From assembly GCF_000003605.2 (NCBI RefSeq), contig NW_003114958.1, forward strand, positions 421,835-443,398: a DNA stretch of 21,564 nt. The letters are read 5' to 3'. This stretch comes from Saccoglossus kowalevskii. Lineage: Eukaryota; Hemichordata; Enteropneusta; Harrimaniidae. The notes under the pieces were generated by a model. That model was not told the origin of the DNA and did no database searches. It worked only from the letters and a program-made list of their open reading frames with translations. Numbering within the stretch: position 1 is the first letter of the stretch; each line of letters begins with the position of its first letter. Of the stretch, positions 4,621 to 20,855 are shown one piece after another. The position numbers and the translations under genes are program-made.

Positions 4621-4626
4621 TTTATT
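4621..4626 (-). terminator. AATAAA polyadenylation signal of the VWD gene
   Basis: The minus strand reads AATAAA 131 nt downstream of the proposed stop codon (4757-4759). That is a normal position for a short 3' UTR and supports the small last exon as the true end of the gene. Confidence 0.55.
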
Positions 4627-4756: not shown

Positions 4757-7700
4757 TTATATACTGCAACTATAGAGAGAACAAACAGTAAATTGTCATT
4801 GCTTGTAGACATGGCAGTGCCAACAGAGGACGTGTTGGAAAAAATACTACTTACATTCTACTGAAATAGGAATTTGTCAAATTTAGTCTTTTGGATATTT
4901 GTTAATATGACAAATTATATAGCAACGTAATATTGGCGCTCTACCACAAAACGACTTAAAACAACAATGTACAACAATGCATTTTTGTCAAACCTTCTGC
5001 GCAATTTGCAATGCTATTATTAAATAATGTAATGTATAATTTGTTTGAGAAAGTTGATACCGGAATCTTCCCATGATGTATTATAAGTATCACTTTACAA
5101 ATCGTTAATATGCCTGACTTTTCAGAGTTCATTCACTTTTTTTAAAAGTGTCTGTAAAATGTGCACGAACTGATTATGCAAGGCCGAGTTTTACAACTGA
5201 TCGGGTAAGTGCAAACTTGAATAGCTCCAAAAAGCTTGCTATGTTTTTTTTTTTGTGAAATCTTCACAATATGTTGGTGTCTTGATTATCTTGTTTATTT
5301 CTTTTAATTTAAAATATTTTTTAATATGTCCCACTTGTTGTCTAGCTCTACAATATAAACACTGTTCAGCTAACGATATCTAAATTTTGAAAATGCAAAT
5401 ACAAAATTGTAGAATTCCGAGTGTTGGCGAAGTAATATATAACATCTATACTTCAATAATTAGTTGTTTTATTTATGCCTTTACCTTCCTGGAACAATCC
5501 ACTTGTCTCCAAATTCATCAGACTCAGTAACTAATTTCAGTGTCCCATCAGGCATCGGTATCTGCATATCATTAGACGGATCCCCGTCAGCATTTCCCAT
5601 CAAGCCACACACTTTTCCGAACAAATCTTGGTTCAGAACAGGAGCAACGCGCCCCTTGCCGTTCCATGTCAATGTAAATGTTGAATCCAGTTTTGCTCTC
5701 ACATATCCTGCATTATCTCGTGTCACTGTCAGATTCCCGAATATCAGTGGAGTCAGAAGATTGTGGATTTTGCCATTAATCTGGAAATGACATTCAAAAT
5801 GTATAAGCCGATGCGGATTTGTATTTCAATATGCTTGTACACACTGGATTCTAATTTATTGCAACAATTGAAAACAGTTATTATACAATGCACCAATTTC
5901 TACAAATAACCACTTTCTCACACGACAATTCGAACTCATAAATAAATGAGGTTACCTGGGTGGCTTTGGAAAGCGTGTTGTGAGTGATAAGCAAATGCAA
6001 TGGATGAGCACGAGGGCAACTACAATTCCGTAAAAATAGTCCAGGTAAGATTGTAAACGTTACATAAACCAAACAATTACAAATGTAAAGGGAATATTGG
6101 ACGTACTAAAATCGTCGGTGTTTTCATTGCACGGAAATGATAACTGTCAGACGCACTATTAATTTGACACTATCCACATTCAATTGTAAAAAATAAACCT
6201 TCAGGATTATATTAGAAACAATTCAATATTCAATGCTGGAGACCAGTTAGATTCGATGATAGACTTGTTTTTGGAATGATTTGTTTTAATCTTGGGTCCG
6301 GCTCAGAATTTTGCAAATTAATTCACATTAGTAAATATTAAACAATAAAACAATTGGGACATCCAAGGGAACTGATTGTTACATTGCGTAGGATTATAGC
6401 AGCGCTGTTCATCTCTCATCTGAATTGTGTTGTCATGTTGTGATTATTCTGCCACGATAGGAGTAACGGAACAACATTTCTGACAAGCGTACAACAGCAA
6501 TAGAGAGGAATGGAATCTACTCACGTAAAACCTGTCTTCAATCAAGGTAACACGGTCACCATTGAAAACAATCGAAACTTCAGTAACCACCATTTTCATA
6601 ACTTCCTTGAGGTGATGGACCCGGAGCAAAACAGTGAATGATGGACGAGGCACACACTCTTGAAAGAATACGTACTCGCAATCACTGTTGCCGTTGTACA
6701 TGAAATGAAAGCCGTCGAATGTACGAAATTGTGGATCAGCTTGTGCACTAGGGGATACTTTTGTTGGCCCCATGTACGGTGCTGTTGCTGTAATAAAACG
6801 TTGTTTTCATTACATTACTGAATACTTCTTTTTGACAGAACTGCGTAATATTTCGAGAATCTTGCATAACAACACTTAAAGTGAATTCAACGTGTACTAG
6901 AGGTTTCATCTTAGACCAATAAGTTATATCAGAGGTACATTACTTGGGGTTTGCAACACACATAGTACTGTATGGTGACATCATGTCAAGATCCCATTCA
7001 AGTATCATCTCGAAGATAGCGAGACTGATGCTACTACCTTCTGACATGACATAGGCGGTTTGTAATAAAACAATAAAACATGTATTATCACATTCATAGT
7101 GAAAAAATTGAATACATCGAAAATGTACAGGTATGGTTATGGTTATCGTAATGCGTCATATCGTGAGCAGCTATTTTGATCCACCTGGACATCCCAGTAT
7201 TCTAGTTACCTCGGGAATGCGCATTCGCATTTTTCTGAGTTGGAACGCTTATGCGAGCGCGAGATTGTAACGGGGTCTTGGTATCATGTCACCGTAGTTG
7301 CAAACCCCAAGTAATGTTCCTCTGGTTATATATATTATAGCTAGTTTCTAGTTGATCAAATAATTTATACTTATCACAACTAATACCCAAAGTAATTTTG
7401 TTATAAGAGCATCTAGTATACAAACCAACTTACTGGGGTCCGCTGAAACAAAATGAGAAATAGTTATAATAACAGTATTATTAGGTAGAATTTAAAAATA
7501 ATATGCTGTAGTATTTCGATATAACGTGTATTTAAATATACGTATCATTCTTACGTTTGCAACATTTGCACAACCAGGGCAAATGACAGGTTGCTTGTTT
7601 TCCTATGCGCTCGTTGTCTTTACATTTGAACATTCTACACACTCCTCCAGCTTTTTGGCAATCGCTGTCTGCAATTTGAAAGCAACATTATTTAGTTTGT

Positions 7701-9093
7701 CAAATATTTCGTTCTAGATTATATGCGCTCAGATTTTCATGACGTCTGCATTCCTCGATCGTGTGTGCATATGGATAGATGTCTTTCAAGGACCAAATAT
7801 TCATGATGTTATATTACGTGTACGTGGTGTACAATATTTCATACCGACAAAATCATATATATTACGTTAAGGTATTACATTATAACTAAGTTTGTTGAGA
7901 TAATATATTCATAACTTACGACAAAACCAACTGCATACATTAAATCCGTAATCTACCTTCGTTTTCAGATCTGGAACAAAATGAGAATCCAATTGTGGCG
8001 ATGAGTTGTTAATTTTTTTATCAGTTTCAAGTAGTATATTCAGTGCCACTGACTAAAAAGTGTGATAACCGCTATATGAAACAAGTTTATTTGTTGACAA
8101 GAGCCTACCGTTATCACTAGCGCAACACTTGCATCCTAATTTGTCATAAGAGGTACCACAGGGTAGGACACTTTTATGATAGTCACATATTTCTGTTTCA
8201 TCAGATTTACACCAACTTCGGCACATCACATTAACAGAAGTATCGGGCTCAGCCGCAACTAGGGCAGAATATGAAGTTGCTACAATGCGAAATAGAATGA
8301 GTTTAAATATATATTCAGACAACAGGAGAATTAAACAATCAGGTTAGGTTGGAAAAACAATATTTGTCATACTTACAAGGGCAGGCTTGTTCAGTACCTG
8401 AGAAAATAATAAAAGACTCGGTAAAGATGACATAGAAAATATATATAGCAAATATAAATATTGCACGTAGCAATATGGTCATTTTAAAGGAAACTACATT
8501 TTTCATATAAAAAATATAAGAATGATTCTCGACACTCCATCTCAATATTTGAGCGACAATGGATATTCTTCATATACACATTTTTATGCAAGTATATCTG
8601 GGTTCTACTTGCAATGAATTAGATTTAAACAAATTTGGGAACATGATGGTAGTTTGTTTAAATTGTCATCACACAACATAAACAGTTTCTCAAAGGGTGA
8701 AAATAACAGTACCATGTCACACCAAAATAACAATTATGTGATGATTAATTACATATCGTGAAAATCTTAAATTTGAATCAAAATCTTAAACTGTTACACA
8801 TAACAGAAGATATACATAGTCAGTAATCATGTCACATGCAGTAGCTTTGTGTAAACAAAAGTCGTAACTTACGAGTTTGTTTGGGGAAAACCCATTTAGA
8901 ACGTCCATCCTGAACAAACAAAAATATGAATAAAATGATGTTGATATACTTGACATATTCACATTTGTTGTTCTTGTTGTGTTTCCATGACAACATTGAT
9001 ACAAATAAATGGAAATAATGACATTACCTCATTGCACGTGGCCAGTGTCAATATGGAGGCGACTAACAAGCATCGTAATACAACAAACGACAT
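4757..9093 (-). CDS. Secreted protein: tandem defensin-like Cys modules plus VWD domain
   Basis: Proposed join, minus strand: 9093-9028, 8909-8873, 8397-8377, 8258-8109, 7970-7920, 7668-7555, 7442-7434, 6787-6525, 5780-5485, 4769-4757. Every junction is GT-AG, all phases agree, and the 1020 nt encode 339 residues plus TAA. Residues 1-22 form a signal peptide (MSFVVLRCLLVASILTLATC). Residues 54-87 hold cysteine module 1: C-x3-C-x7-C-x8-C-x8-C-x-C-C. Residues 104-145 hold module 2, which begins C-x3-C and continues as the beta-defensin-like C-x6-C-x4-C-x11-C-x5-C-x-C-C (DCQKAGGVCRMFKC). Residues about 160-339 are one VWD domain, with DPQFRTFDG (167-175), CEYV (186-189), VCGLMGNADGD (294-304) and a final cysteine (337) contributed by the last exon. 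The usual CGLCG reads CGLMG. The protein is likely extracellular and disulfide-bonded; a defence or matrix role is inferred from domains only. Small exons 3 and 7 are the least certain. Confidence 0.8.
5485..6787 (-). other. VWD domain exons (8 and 9) of the secreted protein
   Basis: The two long exons, 6787-6525 and 5780-5485, are separated by a 744-nt intron. The first has the VWD opening (DP-x-F-x-TFDG, then CEYVFFQEC). The second has the strand-rich middle with LTWNGKGR and the VCGLMGN turn, ending at DKWIVPG before an AAG|GTAAAG donor. If that donor were ignored, the frame would stop at once and the domain would lack its last cysteine. The antisense plus-strand open frame at 5464-5790 is a shadow. 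Confidence 0.85.
6930..7324. mobile_element. Non-autonomous hAT-like MITE in a VWD-gene intron
   Basis: Terminal inverted repeats begin CAGAGG(T/A)ACATTACTTGG and match 26 of 27 bases (6930-6956 against 7324-7298). Looser similarity runs on inward through GGTGACATNATG. The element is flanked by the exact direct repeat GTTATAT (6923-6929 and 7325-7331), read as a 7-bp target-site duplication. The CAGAG start and 7-8 bp duplication suit the hAT superfamily; P-type elements are an alternative. About 395 bp long, it holds no transposase reading frame, so it would depend on another element. It lies in the intron between exons 7 and 8 (7433-6788). Confidence 0.8.
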
Positions 9094-9485: not shown

Positions 9486-9545
9486 CTTGAATGCGTGAAT
9501 TGGTACACCGGTCAAGCTTTCTACTGAGGAATTGCACGATGTATA
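9486..9545 (-). other. Non-coding first exon of the VWD gene
   Basis: The minus strand has a strong donor CATTCAAG|GTATGT (exon end 9486). An acceptor ATATTTTCAG lies directly before the start codon (exon resumes at 9094). Splicing places AAGG before the ATG, with A at -3. The 5' limit is set only by distance from the TATA box. Use of the same acceptor for spliced-leader trans-splicing would be the alternative. Confidence 0.5.
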
Positions 9546-9568
9546 AATTATATGTTGTCCTGTGTCAA

Positions 9569-9574
9569 TTTATA
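9569..9574 (-). promoter_or_regulatory. TATA box of the VWD gene
   Basis: TATAAA on the minus strand lies about 30 nt upstream of the likely start of the non-coding first exon, in the right orientation and spacing for a core promoter. No initiator or other element can be assigned with confidence. Confidence 0.45.
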
Positions 9575-9702
9575 GAGAAAGATCAACTACTATGTATGGA
9601 GATAGACATGACGTAATCCGTAAGAGAAAGGACATCGTGTACTATGCGTGTATTGTGTTATCAATAAGAACGCGTGGTATTGTATAAAACACGGTCTGCT
9701 GC

Positions 9703-10299: not shown

Positions 10300-10512
10300 T
10301 TTCTCCTCACAATCATAACTGCTAATAGCTTAGTAATAACGCATCGCGATAACCTCGCTATATTAAGAATTATAGCAACAGCTGATCTTAGCTGAGCCGA
10401 GCATGAATGGATGAGATGCGTAGTATCCTCATCAAATCGCTCCAATCCTCACATCCTGCCATGTTCGTAAGCCTTCTTTATTATGTGATGTTGTTCGGGG
10501 ATGTTGTATGTG
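10300..10512 (-). repeat. Dispersed repeat R1, copy 1
   Basis: On the minus strand it contains ACACATACAACAT, GGCAGGATGTGAGGATTG and AGCGATT, then CATCTCATCCATTCATG and AGATCAGCTGTTGCTATA. Homology to the copy at 12078-12500 continues through GAGGTTAT and TATTAG. The minus-strand open frame at 10185-10445 lies across it and is most simply part of the repeat. Confidence 0.7.
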
Positions 10513-10525
10513 TTGGCAAGAATGA

Positions 10526-10640
10526 TAGCAACAGCTGATCTTAGCTTAGCCGAGGATGAATGAATGGATGAGATTAATAGTAGCCCCATCGAATCGCTTC
10601 AATGCCCACATCCCGCCAAGTTGAAAAGTGTGATGATGTA
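10526..10640 (-). repeat. Dispersed repeat R1, copy 2 (tandem to copy 1)
   Basis: TAGCAACAGCTGATCTTAGC recurs at 10373 and 10526, 153 bp apart in the same orientation. GAATGGATGAGAT, AATCGCT and CACATCC follow in each. This copy is shorter at its tail than copy 1. Confidence 0.7.
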
Positions 10641-12077: not shown

Positions 12078-12500
12078 CCACATACAACATTACAAGGTAG
12101 GCTTACCAAGCTGGCAGGATGTGAGGATTGAGCGATTAGATCCGGGTACTACTCATCTCAACCAGTCACATTCATATTAGCTGAAACCATCTGTTGTTAT
12201 AGCTCTCGTGGTAGTGAGGTTATTGTGAGGCTTTATCACTATAAGGCCAAAACAAATTGTTTGGTTGCTCTCCGCGACCGACCGAAAAATATGAAATATC
12301 GGGTCGCGTTTTTTCCCATATACCTCGGCTATTTACGATACCCTTAGTTTTCACGAGTTTAAAAGAAAATCCGACCGACCGACCCAATTTTTCAATTTTC
12401 CGACTTGAGGGCAAAATAAGTTTGTTTTTTGGTTTTTTTGGCCTAACATATTAGTGTTGTGAGGATTTGTCATCAAAAGTTGTGATTGTGATTGTCAGGC
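12078..12500 (+). repeat. Dispersed repeat R1, copy 3 (inverted, split by a MITE)
   Basis: Read on the plus strand it follows R1 copy 1 on the minus strand: CCACATACAACAT, GGCAGGATGTGAGGATTG, AGCGATTAGAT, CATCTCA, CTGTTGTTATA, GAGGTTATTG. The homology then breaks at 12245-12443 and resumes as TAACATATTAGTG. The gap is exactly the MITE below. Confidence 0.7.
12245..12443. mobile_element. PIF/Harbinger-like MITE, 199 bp
   Basis: The ends are GGCCAAAA and its reverse complement, flanked by TAA (12242-12244 and 12444-12446). Comparison with R1 copy 1, which reads TTATTAC-TAA-GCTATTAG without the insert, supports insertion with a 3-bp TAA duplication. A TWA duplication and GG-starting ends are typical of PIF/Harbinger MITEs. 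Inside are CGCGACC/GGTCGCG hairpin arms and runs of CCGA. Open frames on both strands (12220-12414 and 12257-12454) are by-products of this structure. Confidence 0.72.
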
Positions 12501-15987: not shown

Positions 15988-16550
15988 GAGTATATCACGA
16001 AATATATGCACGGGCCGAGTGTATATTTGAAATTAATTGTGTAATATTGAGTAGTATACTTCAGCAGGAGTTATTACTATTTGATTTTATCAGCATTACT
16101 TTTCTTTAGTTCTTAGCGACATCGTTACAATAAATCTATTTTTGTAAAATATTAGTTGCAAAACAATACAGCTGATGGGGGGGTATGTAGAGTAGCCACG
16201 GGTTGATTCAAGTTCGTTTGTTTTTTAATTCAAAAATCATTTAGAATATAGTAGAACAAGGGGAGGGGTGAATATAATGGGACAAAGTGTCAGGAGGGTA
16301 GAGAAAGGGAAGGGAGCATGCCTGTGAATGTGATAGTAACCGCATTGGTCTATGTTATTGATCTGTAAATGAAGGGGGTCCATCTAATGATATGTAAGTT
16401 CTGGTGCCCCATAATGACAAATACAATTCCTAGAGTTCATTTCAGTAATTGAAAACTTGTATGAGATATGTTCAATATCAACTCCTACTCTTTCCATTCT
16501 TTTAGATTTAAAACAGTAATAAATATAAATGATGAATAAATTACATGCTT
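15988..16550. other. 3' flank of the fucosyltransferase gene
   Basis: No canonical AATAAA was found on the minus strand after the stop codon. The variant ATTAAA occurs at 16224-16229, about 320 nt downstream, and may serve. The plus strand has clustered G runs (about 16176-16315), so the transcript side is C-rich. The minus-strand open frame at 16384-16572 is an out-of-frame shadow overlapping the last exon. Confidence 0.35.
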
Positions 16551-19500
16551 TCATGACATCCCGTGCTTCCAAATAGCGTCATATTTGTAGTCGTCAGTGA
16601 TTCCGGGAAGGTCTTGATAAAACAACGCGTCTTTGCCAACATTTATTCGATCCAGTAAAACGAATTGTGACCAATGTGATTGGGACCAACCAAGAAATAA
16701 ATCAGCTCCTGAAAACGTCACCATAAAATCGTTATGTTAAACTATTATGTTTTTGTAATTTTTGATTCATTTATGTGCACTCTACACAAATCAACTATAT
16801 TTCTCATGTATATATGTTTTGATCAAATGTTATACTTTATGGCGATCACGTGGAAAAGATGGGCCATTCATTCTCAAAGTAACGGACCATATGTCAAGGG
16901 GACATATTTGGCTCACCTAAGACTAGTAGTTAGTCCTAGGGCTCCTTTTCTGTCAGACCCGCGTAAAATATAGAAAATACTGACAAAAATAGACTACAAC
17001 TCAACCCTTTGTCATGAAATTTTTATAGTAATTGTGATTAGATGATTATGTTGATAAGGAATGCAGCTGAATTTAGGAATAAAATCATATGGGATGGTGG
17101 AATTTTTAGTACGGACGATATACTTACGAAAACATATTTCTTGTTCCAAAAGGGTAATTAGAGTAGTACTATTTCTGAAAACCATTACATCCGGACTGAT
17201 GCCATTAAGTAGTGCATCTGTGTCGTAAATATTGCCCATCGACAATGAGGAAGCAAAATAACTTATAATTTTCTACAAATAAAACAATATATACGTTATA
17301 CTGAAGAAAAGTTAGTTATTTATGTCAACACCAAAGTTAATATTATGTACGTATATATTACCTCACTCTTTAAAGCTTTTAATTGATCCATATAAAAAAT
17401 TAGGCATGGCAAGATGTGGGCTATCACTTTTCTAGGCAAATACATTTCGCATGTAATAAGATTAACACTAGGGTGAACACTATTTACCCCGTCATATATT
17501 TTATAATACTTTTGTCTTTCATTTTACTAATGGTTTCTAGTGGAACTTGTCTGACATGGTGGCTGTTAACCTGAGTGGTACCAAATGGCATTACCATGAA
17601 AAAAATATCTTTTCAAATATTTTCAGTGTATGTTTTTTCTACAATTTCGTTCATACGACATATATTACTTTTGTATCATTGCAACTATCATCTGTTAATT
17701 TCAGCAGTAATCGCCTGTACATTAATTCATGTGATTAATTCATGTGATTAAGGCCTTGCAATTTTTTGAACAAAATTAGTGAGACTCATTGTCGCGGCTG
17801 TATTTTACATCAAAATGGCTTTTTTATAACGATGTGTTGTGTCAATATTATCACTGTAGCCGTCTGTTTGATTATGGCTTTTCTGGTCTCAATATCCATA
17901 CCAGAATTGCCAGCAATAGAACTGTTGATGTTTGTCTAAGCAAAATGTTGGTCACTTTGTGTTGAAGGATATATTTTACAAATATTTTGACTATAATGTC
18001 CCTGTAGGTTTCCGGATGTGCTCTGTGTTACTGTAGACACTTAAGTAGTAGGGAAAATTGATTAGGCTTTAACACTTAGGCTTTTCCTAACGATTCTAAA
18101 ATCTCATAATAAAAGTTTTGTAAATATATAAGGACACATGACAACAACGTGAGATGTTCTTCTAGAAAGTGCATTTATTCTGCGATTTATTTATATATTA
18201 ATTAATTATACATTCATATTGCACATGGCAATCAATTTTATGCAAAGTAACAACTTGTTGAATGCTGAAAACAATATAAATTATTATCATCACTGAGGCC
18301 GTTTATTTGACATATCTGGCACGTTATCAAACACATAACAGGTCAGCAAGGCTGATAATGCCATGTTTAATAATATTCTAATAAAGTTATACAGGACTAA
18401 ACTTACCTTCATTGTTATAAAATTAAGTTCAACTTCCTCAACTTACCTCTGAATTGTTCGGGTGCGCTATATAGAGACATTCCAGTTTATGTTTATTCAT
18501 GACATTCATTACAGCTGAGCTGATTATTTCCGCTGACTCGTCAACTTTCTTCATTAAACCGATACATCTAAGTTCATCAAAATCGTATGTACACCTACAC
18601 AATACACAAATAGCAAAGTTTTTAGCTCCGCTGTCAAGTATCGTCCGGTGTCGTCCGTGTCAACTTTTTTACTTTTTCGACTTCTTCTTGAAAACTACAA
18701 TTCGTATTGCTTTGATACTTGGTGTATATATATTTTGAATTATTTTTGTCATTTTTGCTAGAAGGTAATATTTTCAACTTCTTGTGAAAAACCGCTAGTT
18801 CGATTGCTTGGATACTATACATATAGGTACCTCAGGTAGACCTCTTGCAGATTTGTTTATTTTGTGACGATATCTTCAATTCTCTAATTTTGATAAGTAT
18901 TTTTGTCATTTTTGGTAAAAAGTGATATTTTCGACTACTTGTTAAAAACCTCAAGCCCGATTGCGGTGATACTATACATATATGTACCTCTTGTAAACCT
19001 CTCTCAGATTTGTTCCTTTTCTAATGATATCTTCAGTTCTTTAATTGAAATGTGCATTGCTAACAGCAGAGCTATCTCAGTCGAGAGGCTGTTTGTTTAG
19101 TTATTTTACCTAGTTGATTTTAAAGCCCTTGTTAAGAATGCGAAGAGATGTAACACCGGTAATTATTTAGCACATTATATTTAAGCTTTCGGAAAATATA
19201 ACTGTTGCTAAAGATCTGTCTTGTAGTACATCGAAGAACGTGATAAATTAGACAGTCGTTAGTGTTTAAATGTATAGGAACTCACGTTGTTCAATCATAA
19301 ATGATGGAGCTCGTGAGAAATGCAGGCAAAGGAATCCAACAAACAAACGATCTCAACTCATATCTATATGATCATTACACATAAGTGATTTAGACTAAAG
19401 ATAGAATTATACGATAGTACTAACACTTCTCCTGTTCTGTTTCGCCAGTGCATGGCTAGAAAACGACCATCGCATATATCCTTCACCACTTTATCTGCCA

Positions 19501-20855
19501 TTTCACGAATGAATGGCGCCCTCGCCAGGTGACGTTGTACATCAGCTAAGGGGAATCTGTTGCTTGTATAATTCATTGGATCATAAAATGCCACGCAGTC
19601 ATAATTACTTGAATTTTCCAACCAATCAATGTCTGTAATGTTCGTGTATAGTGTTGCATAATCGGGGAGTTCAAGTGCATGTAGTCGTTGTAGTGATTTC
19701 AGTAACAATGTGTAACGATGCTGGATGGGAGGGGTTTTCCAAAATATCACGTGAATCCTTCCATTACAATTATTTTTGAAATCATCCATTGTTGTCACTG
19801 ACACAAACTCTTTAAATTTATCAACGTCAAATGTCATTCCCCACGGTCTCATTGTTCTAGCATTATATCCTCTATCGTTACTCCCAGTATCAAAGAAAGG
19901 AATGAGTACAACACTATAGTTGTGCTCCTTAGCAAATACAGCAGCTCTCAGAAACGTGTTGTATTGTACATTACTGCCGTACGCAAGTTTATTTAATAGG
20001 AGTGGTAGCAGCATTTTTGTCGACAAAGTTGTGTTATTTTGAAACAGACCGTTTCTTTTCATCAATTTATTGCGTACCTGCGAAAATACAAGTCGAAAAC
20101 TGAAATATTAAGTTAAACTATACATCGAAATATTTTTTTTTTATTTGAAGTTTCATTTCATAACATTTCACTTCTATGTAATCAATTAAATGTTAATAAC
20201 TGACATTTAACTTCAGTTAAGATCATTCAAACCGAAAACCAGTAAACGCACTCACTATAATAATACAGTATGGATTACACTTATAATGAAGAAGAAAGTG
20301 ACGTCATAACACATAATATGCTTAGCCGACAACGAATAAGCGACAAATACCTTAATACTTAGTGCTCGCTGACCTGCAGCGATGTTTAACAGCATCTCAC
20401 CACAAGACCCGACATCACTCTCCCTCTTTCACTCGCTAACTCTGTTACTCACTACAATCAAACTACACTGTGACATATTAGTCTACTCTTACATTTTGCA
20501 TAGATTAAATATTTGAATAATTATGCACCATCAATACTGTTCTTGTTGACGATAGAGATACAGTGTGATCTTCACTTACAATACTCTCCTCTGCGTATCG
20601 CACCACGTTATCCGAATTAACTGCCTGTAAATACAACATAATGTCAAATCCACAATAGTAACCAGCATAAATTCGTGATATTTCTCGCAAAAACGTTTCA
20701 TTATCTTCTATTTCACCAAAGACTTCACGAACACATTAACTTACCATGTAAGGAATTTGAATATCAGATGTCCTCGACCACATTAGATATGACGCAATAC
20801 AAAATGGAAACAGTAATATCAATAATTTGTTCTTGGTACACAATACATCCAACAT
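16551..20855 (-). CDS. GDP-fucose O-fucosyltransferase-like type II membrane protein
   Basis: Proposed join, minus strand: 20855-20745, 20624-20580, 20077-19425, 18594-18447, 17272-17128, 16708-16551. All introns are GT-AG, phases run 0, 0, 2, 0, 1, and 1260 nt give 419 residues plus TGA. A short basic tail (MLDVLCTKNK) leads into one hydrophobic segment, LLILLFPFCIASYLMW (11-26), the layout of Golgi/ER type II glycosyltransferases. The lumenal part has NKLAYGSNVQYNTFLRAAVF (81-100), where the family's nucleotide-sugar binding G-x-x-N-Q region falls. FLAMHWR (258-264) follows, with the H-x-R whose arginine contacts GDP-fucose in known enzymes, then LECLYIAHP near 308-316 and LLEQEICFRADLFLGWSQSH (360-379), the conserved C-terminal motif. 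Several N-x-S/T sites (NNT, NYS, NIT, NYT, NRT) fit a lumenal protein. It is not POFUT1 or POFUT2 by motif wording; the acceptor is unknown. The exon 3 donor (GTTAGT) is non-consensus but is the only one whose phase fits. Confidence 0.82.
17129..18446 (-). other. Coding exon 5 edge and the 1174-nt intron 4
   Basis: Intron 4 of the fucosyltransferase gene runs from the GTAAGT donor at 18446 to the TTTTATTTGTAG acceptor ending at 17273. I see no nested gene in it. ATTAATTCATGTGATT is duplicated back to back at about 17720-17750. The plus-strand open frame at 17547-17738 shows no motif. Confidence 0.4.
18660..19055 (+). repeat. 157-bp tandem repeat in fucosyltransferase introns
   Basis: TATTTTTGTCATTTTTG starts at 18741 and again at 18898. 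Similarity holds across the unit: CGATTGC, GATACTATACATATA, GTACCTC, CAGATTTGTT, GATATCTTCA. A shortened, more diverged third piece precedes them (about 18672-18740). All lie in the intron between coding exons 3 and 4 (19424-18595). The short open frames in this block are repeat-derived. Confidence 0.75.

Follow-up and report, generated by a model that had tools for sequence, protein, structure and literature searches.

The minus strand of the window, that is, the whole 21,564-nucleotide (nt) stretch of DNA analysed here (C844:421835-443398 of a 572-Mb assembly of 4830 contigs; about 35% G+C and, by its gene content, from an animal), carries between positions 9093 and 4757 a gene whose ten coding exons encode a secreted protein of 339 residues. 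From its N terminus, the protein comprises a signal peptide, two cysteine modules (1 and 2), and a single complete VWD domain. We read it, with a probability of about 0.6, as a secreted protein rich in disulphides that joins a beta-defensin-like (trans-defensin) domain, itself preceded by a probably related module, to VWD, so that a variable head is carried on a scaffold. The architecture is well supported; the function we infer. A wider proposal, held tentatively and at slightly less than even odds, is that a beta-defensin domain has been made into a shuffled exon, giving a large secreted defensin-VWD family with a conserved scaffold and a fast-varying head of one or more modules.

The gene model was built from the sequence. 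All nine introns are of the GT-AG type and every exon phase is compatible, in agreement with an original prediction from the same DNA, whose coordinates, strand, exon number, and protein length proved correct. The gene is confirmed as real. A probable exon of the 5' untranslated region has its donor at 9486/9485 and its acceptor immediately 5' of the ATG. Exon 7, when omitted, leaves the reading frame open too. The acceptor of exon 10, CTATAG/TTGCAG, brings in Cys337, the counterpart of the terminal VWD cysteine in the alignment with VWF D2/D3; an alternative last-exon acceptor, TTGCAG/TATATAA, would give 337 residues and was dropped for the former, whose 339 residues agree with the length predicted earlier. 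The protein has one N-glycosylation motif and no dibasic site.

The VWD domain matched PF00094 with an E value of 4.6e-21 (76.2 bits against a cut-off of 22.9; residues 164-312, profile positions 3-153 of 156). Over the whole protein, searched in its 337-residue version, VWD was the only Pfam family at E values up to 10; neither C8 nor TIL was found. The predicted signal peptide and single VWD domain were thus borne out, and the cysteine modules showed no Pfam match to C8 or TIL, an identity that the prediction had named as one of its refuting results. The stop codon directly follows the end of the VWD in the model, and WIVPGSC aligns with the ends of VWF D2 and D3, indicating that the domain is complete. 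Its closest solved sequences in PDB are FCGBP and VWF, and a match to lipovitellin was marginal (E 0.0041). Compared with FCGBP and VWF, the domain lacks two cysteines, the first of the VWD and the second of CGLC. In VWF these two are bonded to each other, and therefore one disulphide appears to have gone as a unit. ADPQ stands in the window protein at the place of GDPH, which we take to be the self-cleavage site of VWD domains.

Comparisons of sequence support module 2 as beta-defensin-like through a family profile, a shuffled control, and the intron position. The beta-defensin fold is a three-stranded sheet with the bonds C1-C5, C2-C4, and C3-C6. Module 2 has the cysteine order C-x6-C-x3/4-C-xn-C-xn-CC with the glycine of G-x-C, an order that across the family arises partly by selection of the modules. 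The strict six-cysteine spacing of beta-defensins occurs once in the six frames of the window and in none of 300 random windows matched in dinucleotide composition, and CKCC, present twice, was equalled in only one of the 300. Such patterns are not due to chance, because they are rare in these random windows. When the cysteines were fixed and the rest of the window module was shuffled, its match to PF00711 was lost in 50 of 50 and in 9 of 9 trials.

We built a profile from 21 modules, taken from the window gene and from related loci of this genome, leaving out the C1003 module and the second C446 module, which is cut by the end of the stretch. Searched against PDB (177,635 sequences), this profile found seven sequences at E values up to 10, and all seven have the beta-defensin fold: beta-defensins 106, 7, and 8, CpoBD13, two constructs of oyster Big defensin 1, and helianthamide. 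We take helianthamide to be a sea-anemone alpha-amylase inhibitor of this fold, and Big defensin 1 presumably is an oyster protein of the same fold. A profile of the same 21 modules with their non-cysteine residues shuffled found no PDB sequence. Searched one by one in Pfam, three modules matched PF13841 (best E 0.075), two matched PF00711 (best E 0.0052), and none matched another family; the 21 shuffled modules gave no match to either family and four matches to four unrelated ones. When 11 modules were aligned, nothing was invariant but the six cysteines, which stand in beta-defensin order, and the glycine of G-x-C; in a MAFFT alignment of all 21, five of the six cysteines were strictly invariant and the glycine nearly so. 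Since the modules were picked by eye or by their cysteine pattern, this invariance is in part a product of selection; the PDB search with the 21-module profile is the independent test. Of 22 modules, 21 have a predicted splice-site AG in phase-1 register, 2, 5, or 8 nt ahead of the codon next to that of Cys1 on its 5' side; in several modules another AG is possible. According to a passage of PMC7203481, big defensins and beta-defensins both have a phase-I intron at the 5' end of the cysteine region.

Module 1 is less clear. The original prediction had called both modules defensin-like, which held for module 2 by the evidence above and was not shown for module 1, for which no defensin match was found in Pfam or PDB. 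Its profile matched that of the module 2 family with a moderate hhalign probability of 60% (E 8.5e-5), whereas the two modules compared pairwise showed no detectable similarity, 316 of 2000 cysteine-fixed shuffles scoring as high. Both modules were also said to end in C-K-C-C. The motif does occur twice in the window; the CKCC end of module 1 is not conserved, being CKSC or CKWC in close paralogs. A match of module 1 to zf-primase (E 0.0027-0.018) covered 17-18 residues locally and was set aside as noise. A CSalpha-beta defensin was considered on account of C-x3-C, C-x-C, and a low-confidence model with a helix then a hairpin, and was rejected, as no such family was found in Pfam or PDB. Module 1 as a defensin is thus unproven; judged from its profile, it is probably related to module 2.

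The decisive evidence came from relatives in the genome. Searching it with module 2 revealed five further loci, and at all five the matches to exons 1, 2, 4, 5, 6, 8, and 9 recur in the same order. The VWD exons thus follow the same upstream exons at five paralogous loci, and no sign appeared of the different upstream gene that the original prediction had named as a refuting result. To judge from these comparisons, the gene is a member of a multigene family built alike: the unusual fusion that had been predicted is well supported and is no isolated case. The VWD, used as the query, gave 126 matches. The 30 best of them, grouped by eye, represent 21 loci (the window and the five paralogs included), and nine lower-ranked loci were also read upstream. 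At 19 of the 21 top loci the stretch read contains a defensin-like exon that precedes the VWD exons on their strand, the two exceptions being near C348:258 kb and C4555:229 kb (2.6 kb read); the same was seen at one of the nine lower-ranked loci. Among the first three of the latter, C3423 has two modules and C1362 has a different cysteine-rich stretch; none of the six further ones (about 3.2 kb each) has a module, and three have a different VWD type. In the sample read, this VWD subfamily ranks apart from the other VWD genes of the genome, which makes it possible to count the members of the family and to test directly how they are expressed. The separate type at L074-L076 (GDPHxxTFDGRxYSFQGxCW), lower-ranked and without defensin-like exons in 3.2 kb, presumably resembles BMPER/crossveinless-2.

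Canonical six-cysteine modules (C-x6-C-x3-C-x12-C-x5-CC) occur on C504. A scan of 98 kb for the cysteine pattern gave 12 matches, compared with 0.25 expected by chance; one of them, at L038, is on the other strand from its VWD exon and, being taken as chance, was not counted. Module number varies, with two modules each in C514, C446, and C3423. At L067 and L068 (C514 and C446) the second module is acidic, lies far upstream of the VWD exons, and resembles its counterpart at the other locus, an example being CMDIRKEPCENEEGEEGDYRSGLC from L067; the start of the L068 copy is outside the stretch read.

Several results weigh against the proposed reading. Every single defensin match is weak, and none exceeds a curated threshold. 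Of the profile searches suggested earlier, that of the VWD against PF00094 succeeded, but exon 6, alone or with exon 5, reached only 14.6-17.2 bits with PF00711 against a cut-off of 21 (E 0.0052-0.033), and module 1 matched no defensin. The seven PDB matches have E values of 0.1 to 4.6 each, and one shuffled module reached an E value of 0.0086 with an unrelated family. Single Pfam E values therefore mean little, given this shuffled module and the zf-primase match of module 1. A search of the whole genome with PF00711 at E values up to 10 gave eight matches, none above the cut-off, and exon 6 and its paralogs were not among them. Against PDB, module 2 alone matched a ferritin chain (E 0.0077) and no defensin, nor did a profile of six close paralogs find a defensin. 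The structure prediction that had been recommended was unhelpful: the single-sequence model of exon 6 was mostly strand and coil with a mean predicted local distance difference test score (pLDDT) of 55.8 and no fold match, and exon 4, modelled without an alignment, averaged a pLDDT of 55-56 and likewise matched no fold usefully. At the C1003 locus the VWD exon is shortened or damaged and Cys4 of module 2 is lost, so that this copy may be decaying. At three of the six lower-ranked controls the stretch read did not extend to the first VWD exon. The net charge of the 21 modules ranges from -5 to +6, with 11 positive, 2 zero, and 8 negative, and a uniform membrane-killing role fits poorly because of the eight negative ones.

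We estimated pairwise ratios of nonsynonymous to synonymous substitution (dN/dS) by a simple method over these short exons in five copies (the window, C373 twice, C1742, and C3649; C1003 was left out). For exons 4, 6, 8, and 9 the values were 0.28-0.55, 0.27-0.95, 0.11-0.32, and 0.10-0.35, respectively, and on these values the four exons behave as coding and constrained. The nonsynonymous rate (dN) was 0.17-0.41 in exon 6 versus 0.03-0.07 in exon 9. The module exons change amino acids several times faster than the VWD exons. This difference bears on an unlikely explanation, in which the protein is secreted for a structural or adhesive purpose, as in mucus, an egg coat, or a byssus-like or mineral matrix. 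The modules would then be no more than disulphide-stabilised linkers or cross-linking knots, and their likeness to defensins would be convergent. Such a role would suit the closest solved relatives of the VWD (FCGBP, VWF, and mucins), the eight acidic modules of 21, and the 17 cysteines of the module region (residues 40-145), an odd number that allows an inter-chain link. A structural knot, however, would not be expected to evolve much faster than the VWD, the phase-1 intron is as in defensin genes, and the family profile found only beta-defensin folds (seven of seven), whereas modules shuffled around the same cysteines found none.

The range of charge, -5 to +6, is in turn what might be seen if the beta-defensin-like fold were real and the protein were not antimicrobial, serving instead to inhibit or bind a protein of the host or of prey (as an enzyme inhibitor, a channel ligand, or a signalling molecule). 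We consider this quite improbable. It gains from helianthamide, the second-best PDB match and an alpha-amylase inhibitor. Against this reading, no target is known, and a crab vitellogenin VWD alone binds bacteria and inhibits their growth, as stated in part of PMC7949091.

A quite different explanation would be that two genes were misjoined, a short two-module defensin-like peptide ending in intron 6 and VWD exons belonging elsewhere. Exon 6 read into intron 6 does give a short basic tail and a stop (...CKCCKRKNDTYI followed by the stop, 7532-7555; stop codon at 7534-7532), and a CCKRK or CCKRN read-through is similar in several paralogs. Yet the modules precede VWD exons on the same strand at 19 of 21 loci, with the full exon order at five besides the window; splice sites and phases are compatible; and neither AATAAA nor ATTAAA occurs on the minus strand between 7560 and 6800. 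Misjoining is nearly excluded because the gene order is conserved at the paralogs, and we give it very little credence. A minor short isoform, a free peptide ending in intron 6, is possible.

Under the preferred reading of a defensin-like head fused to a VWD scaffold, exon shuffling would have placed a mobile defensin exon of phase 1-1 ahead of a VWD gene, with many duplications of the fusion to follow. The VWD may act as a secreted scaffold that keeps the protein on mucus, matrix, or the surface of a microbe, or raises its concentration there, and the variable defensin-like part would bind or damage microbes. Such an anchor role is suggested by analogy with VWD proteins in general. Taken as a whole, the original interpretation is partly to mostly supported, and the antimicrobial or adhesive role that it put forward may plausibly hold. 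The protein probably acts whole and not as the precursor of a free peptide, because it lacks a dibasic site. The window copy, whose 37-residue core has a net charge of +5, would be suited to bacterial surfaces; acidic members would need another target.

To our knowledge, a trans-defensin is either a free-standing peptide or a big defensin carrying a single hydrophobic domain. No defensin-VWD fusion was found by title in searches aimed at it within one open-licence library, where two titles that came up concern salmon mucins and sea trout skin, and the big-defensin passages of PMC12373286 contain neither 'Willebrand' nor 'VWD'. We regard the protein as a known type of domain set in an architecture for which we found no description; relatives elsewhere may well have been deposited without comment. 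If the reading is right, the family would show the defensin domain used as a module and not only as a free antimicrobial peptide, and would be a diversified, scaffold-held set of proteins for recognizing or killing microbes. It would also make exon shuffling, one proposed route to beta-defensins in a section of PMC7203481, visible in one genome, as a concrete case for that hypothesis. The protein itself, as a conserved scaffold with a variable antimicrobial-type head, would be testable.

Table 1. Positions in the window of the features of the defensin-VWD gene, with the evidence for each.
Feature	Position	Strand	Evidence
TATA-like promoter element CTATAAAT, putative	9568..9575	-	sequence
Coding exon 1: start codon and signal peptide (MSFVVLRCLLVASILTLATCNE)	9028..9093	-	splice site and phase, hydrophobicity; homologous exon at five paralogs, weak in C1003 and C1742
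Coding exon 2 (DGRSKWVFPKQT)	8873..8909	-	splice sites and phase; kept in five paralogs
Coding exon 3, 21 nt, with Cys40	8377..8397	-	splice sites and phase only
Coding exon 4: cysteine module 1 (CRSWC...CKCC), phase 1-1	8109..8258	-	splice sites and phase; kept in five paralogs; dN/dS 0.28-0.55
Coding exon 5: CSWFC lead-in to module 2, phase 1-1	7920..7970	-	splice sites and phase; kept in five paralogs
Coding exon 6: beta-defensin-like core of module 2, phase 1-1	7555..7668	-	splice sites and phase, PF00711 below cut-off, family profile, shuffles
Coding exon 7: 9-nt microexon, putative linker	7434..7442	-	splice sites and phase only
Coding exon 8: VWD first half	6525..6787	-	PF00094 E 4.6e-21; PDB matches FCGBP, VWF; dN/dS 0.11-0.32
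Coding exon 9: VWD second half (VCGLMGNADGDPSND)	5485..5780	-	PF00094, PDB matches; dN/dS 0.10-0.35
Coding exon 10: terminal VWD cysteine and stop (CSI, stop), 13 nt	4757..4769	-	terminal Cys aligned with VWF
AATAAA polyadenylation signal, putative	4621..4626	-	sequence

Elsewhere in the window, intron 7 contains an inverted repeat (6930-7324; 28-nt arms that are 96% complementary, 339 nt between them), which is probably a small non-autonomous transposon. A neighbouring gene for a GDP-fucose protein O-fucosyltransferase-like enzyme lies at 19364-20107 on the minus strand (PF10250, E 3.3e-11); perhaps it reaches on to about 16551, a guess from open frames that have no Pfam support. A 157-nt unit forms a tandem pair, about 81% alike, at 18741-19046, and related direct and inverted repeat pieces at 10365-10622 and 12087-12130 are likely a mobile element. 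A candidate second VWD copy at 16370-16409 on the plus strand (tblastn E 9.4, with a stop) was dismissed as chance. The window gave no Rfam match at gathering score, no ARAGORN prediction, and no NCBIfam match. No relatives turned up in viral contigs when these were scanned with module 2 and with VWD exon 9, and a scan of phage records with a C504 module gave nothing useful.

The VWD of the window protein resembles those of FCGBP, VWF, and mucins (PF00094) in being a whole domain with the VCGL.GN..GDPSND loop and the terminal cysteine. It differs in being a single VWD without C8 and TIL, in the two missing cysteines, and in having ADPQ for GDPH; the arrangement typical of gel-forming mucins, VWF, and zonadhesin, with C8 and TIL after VWD and repeated D assemblies, is absent. 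We know of no defensin-like domain in vitellogenin, in which, unlike here, the VWD is part of a large lipid carrier. What is shared is a VWD, for which bacterial binding and growth inhibition are reported in a portion of PMC7949091. Vertebrate beta-defensins (PF00711, PF13841) are alike in the six cysteines, the glycine of G-x-C2, the CC-K end in most modules, the phase-1 intron, and the weak profile matches. They are unlike in that the present family is not stand-alone and has scores below the cut-offs, extra cysteines, and longer loops. Of the marks of big defensins given in a passage of PMC7203481, a hydrophobic N-terminal globular domain and a dibasic prodomain site, neither was seen in the window protein, which has no dibasic site and only VWD in Pfam (337-residue version). 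The partner of the defensin domain is there a hydrophobic domain placed before it, whereas here it is a VWD placed after it, and many modules of the present family have a seventh or eighth cysteine (often C-x-CC), and some modules are acidic. Big defensins such as oyster Big defensin 1 (PDB 6qbk/6qbl) nevertheless share with the family the C-x6-C-x3-C spacing, with GWCRPTC corresponding to GxCRPxC in several members, a phase-1 intron before the cysteine domain (in the same part of PMC7203481), and a defensin domain joined to another domain.

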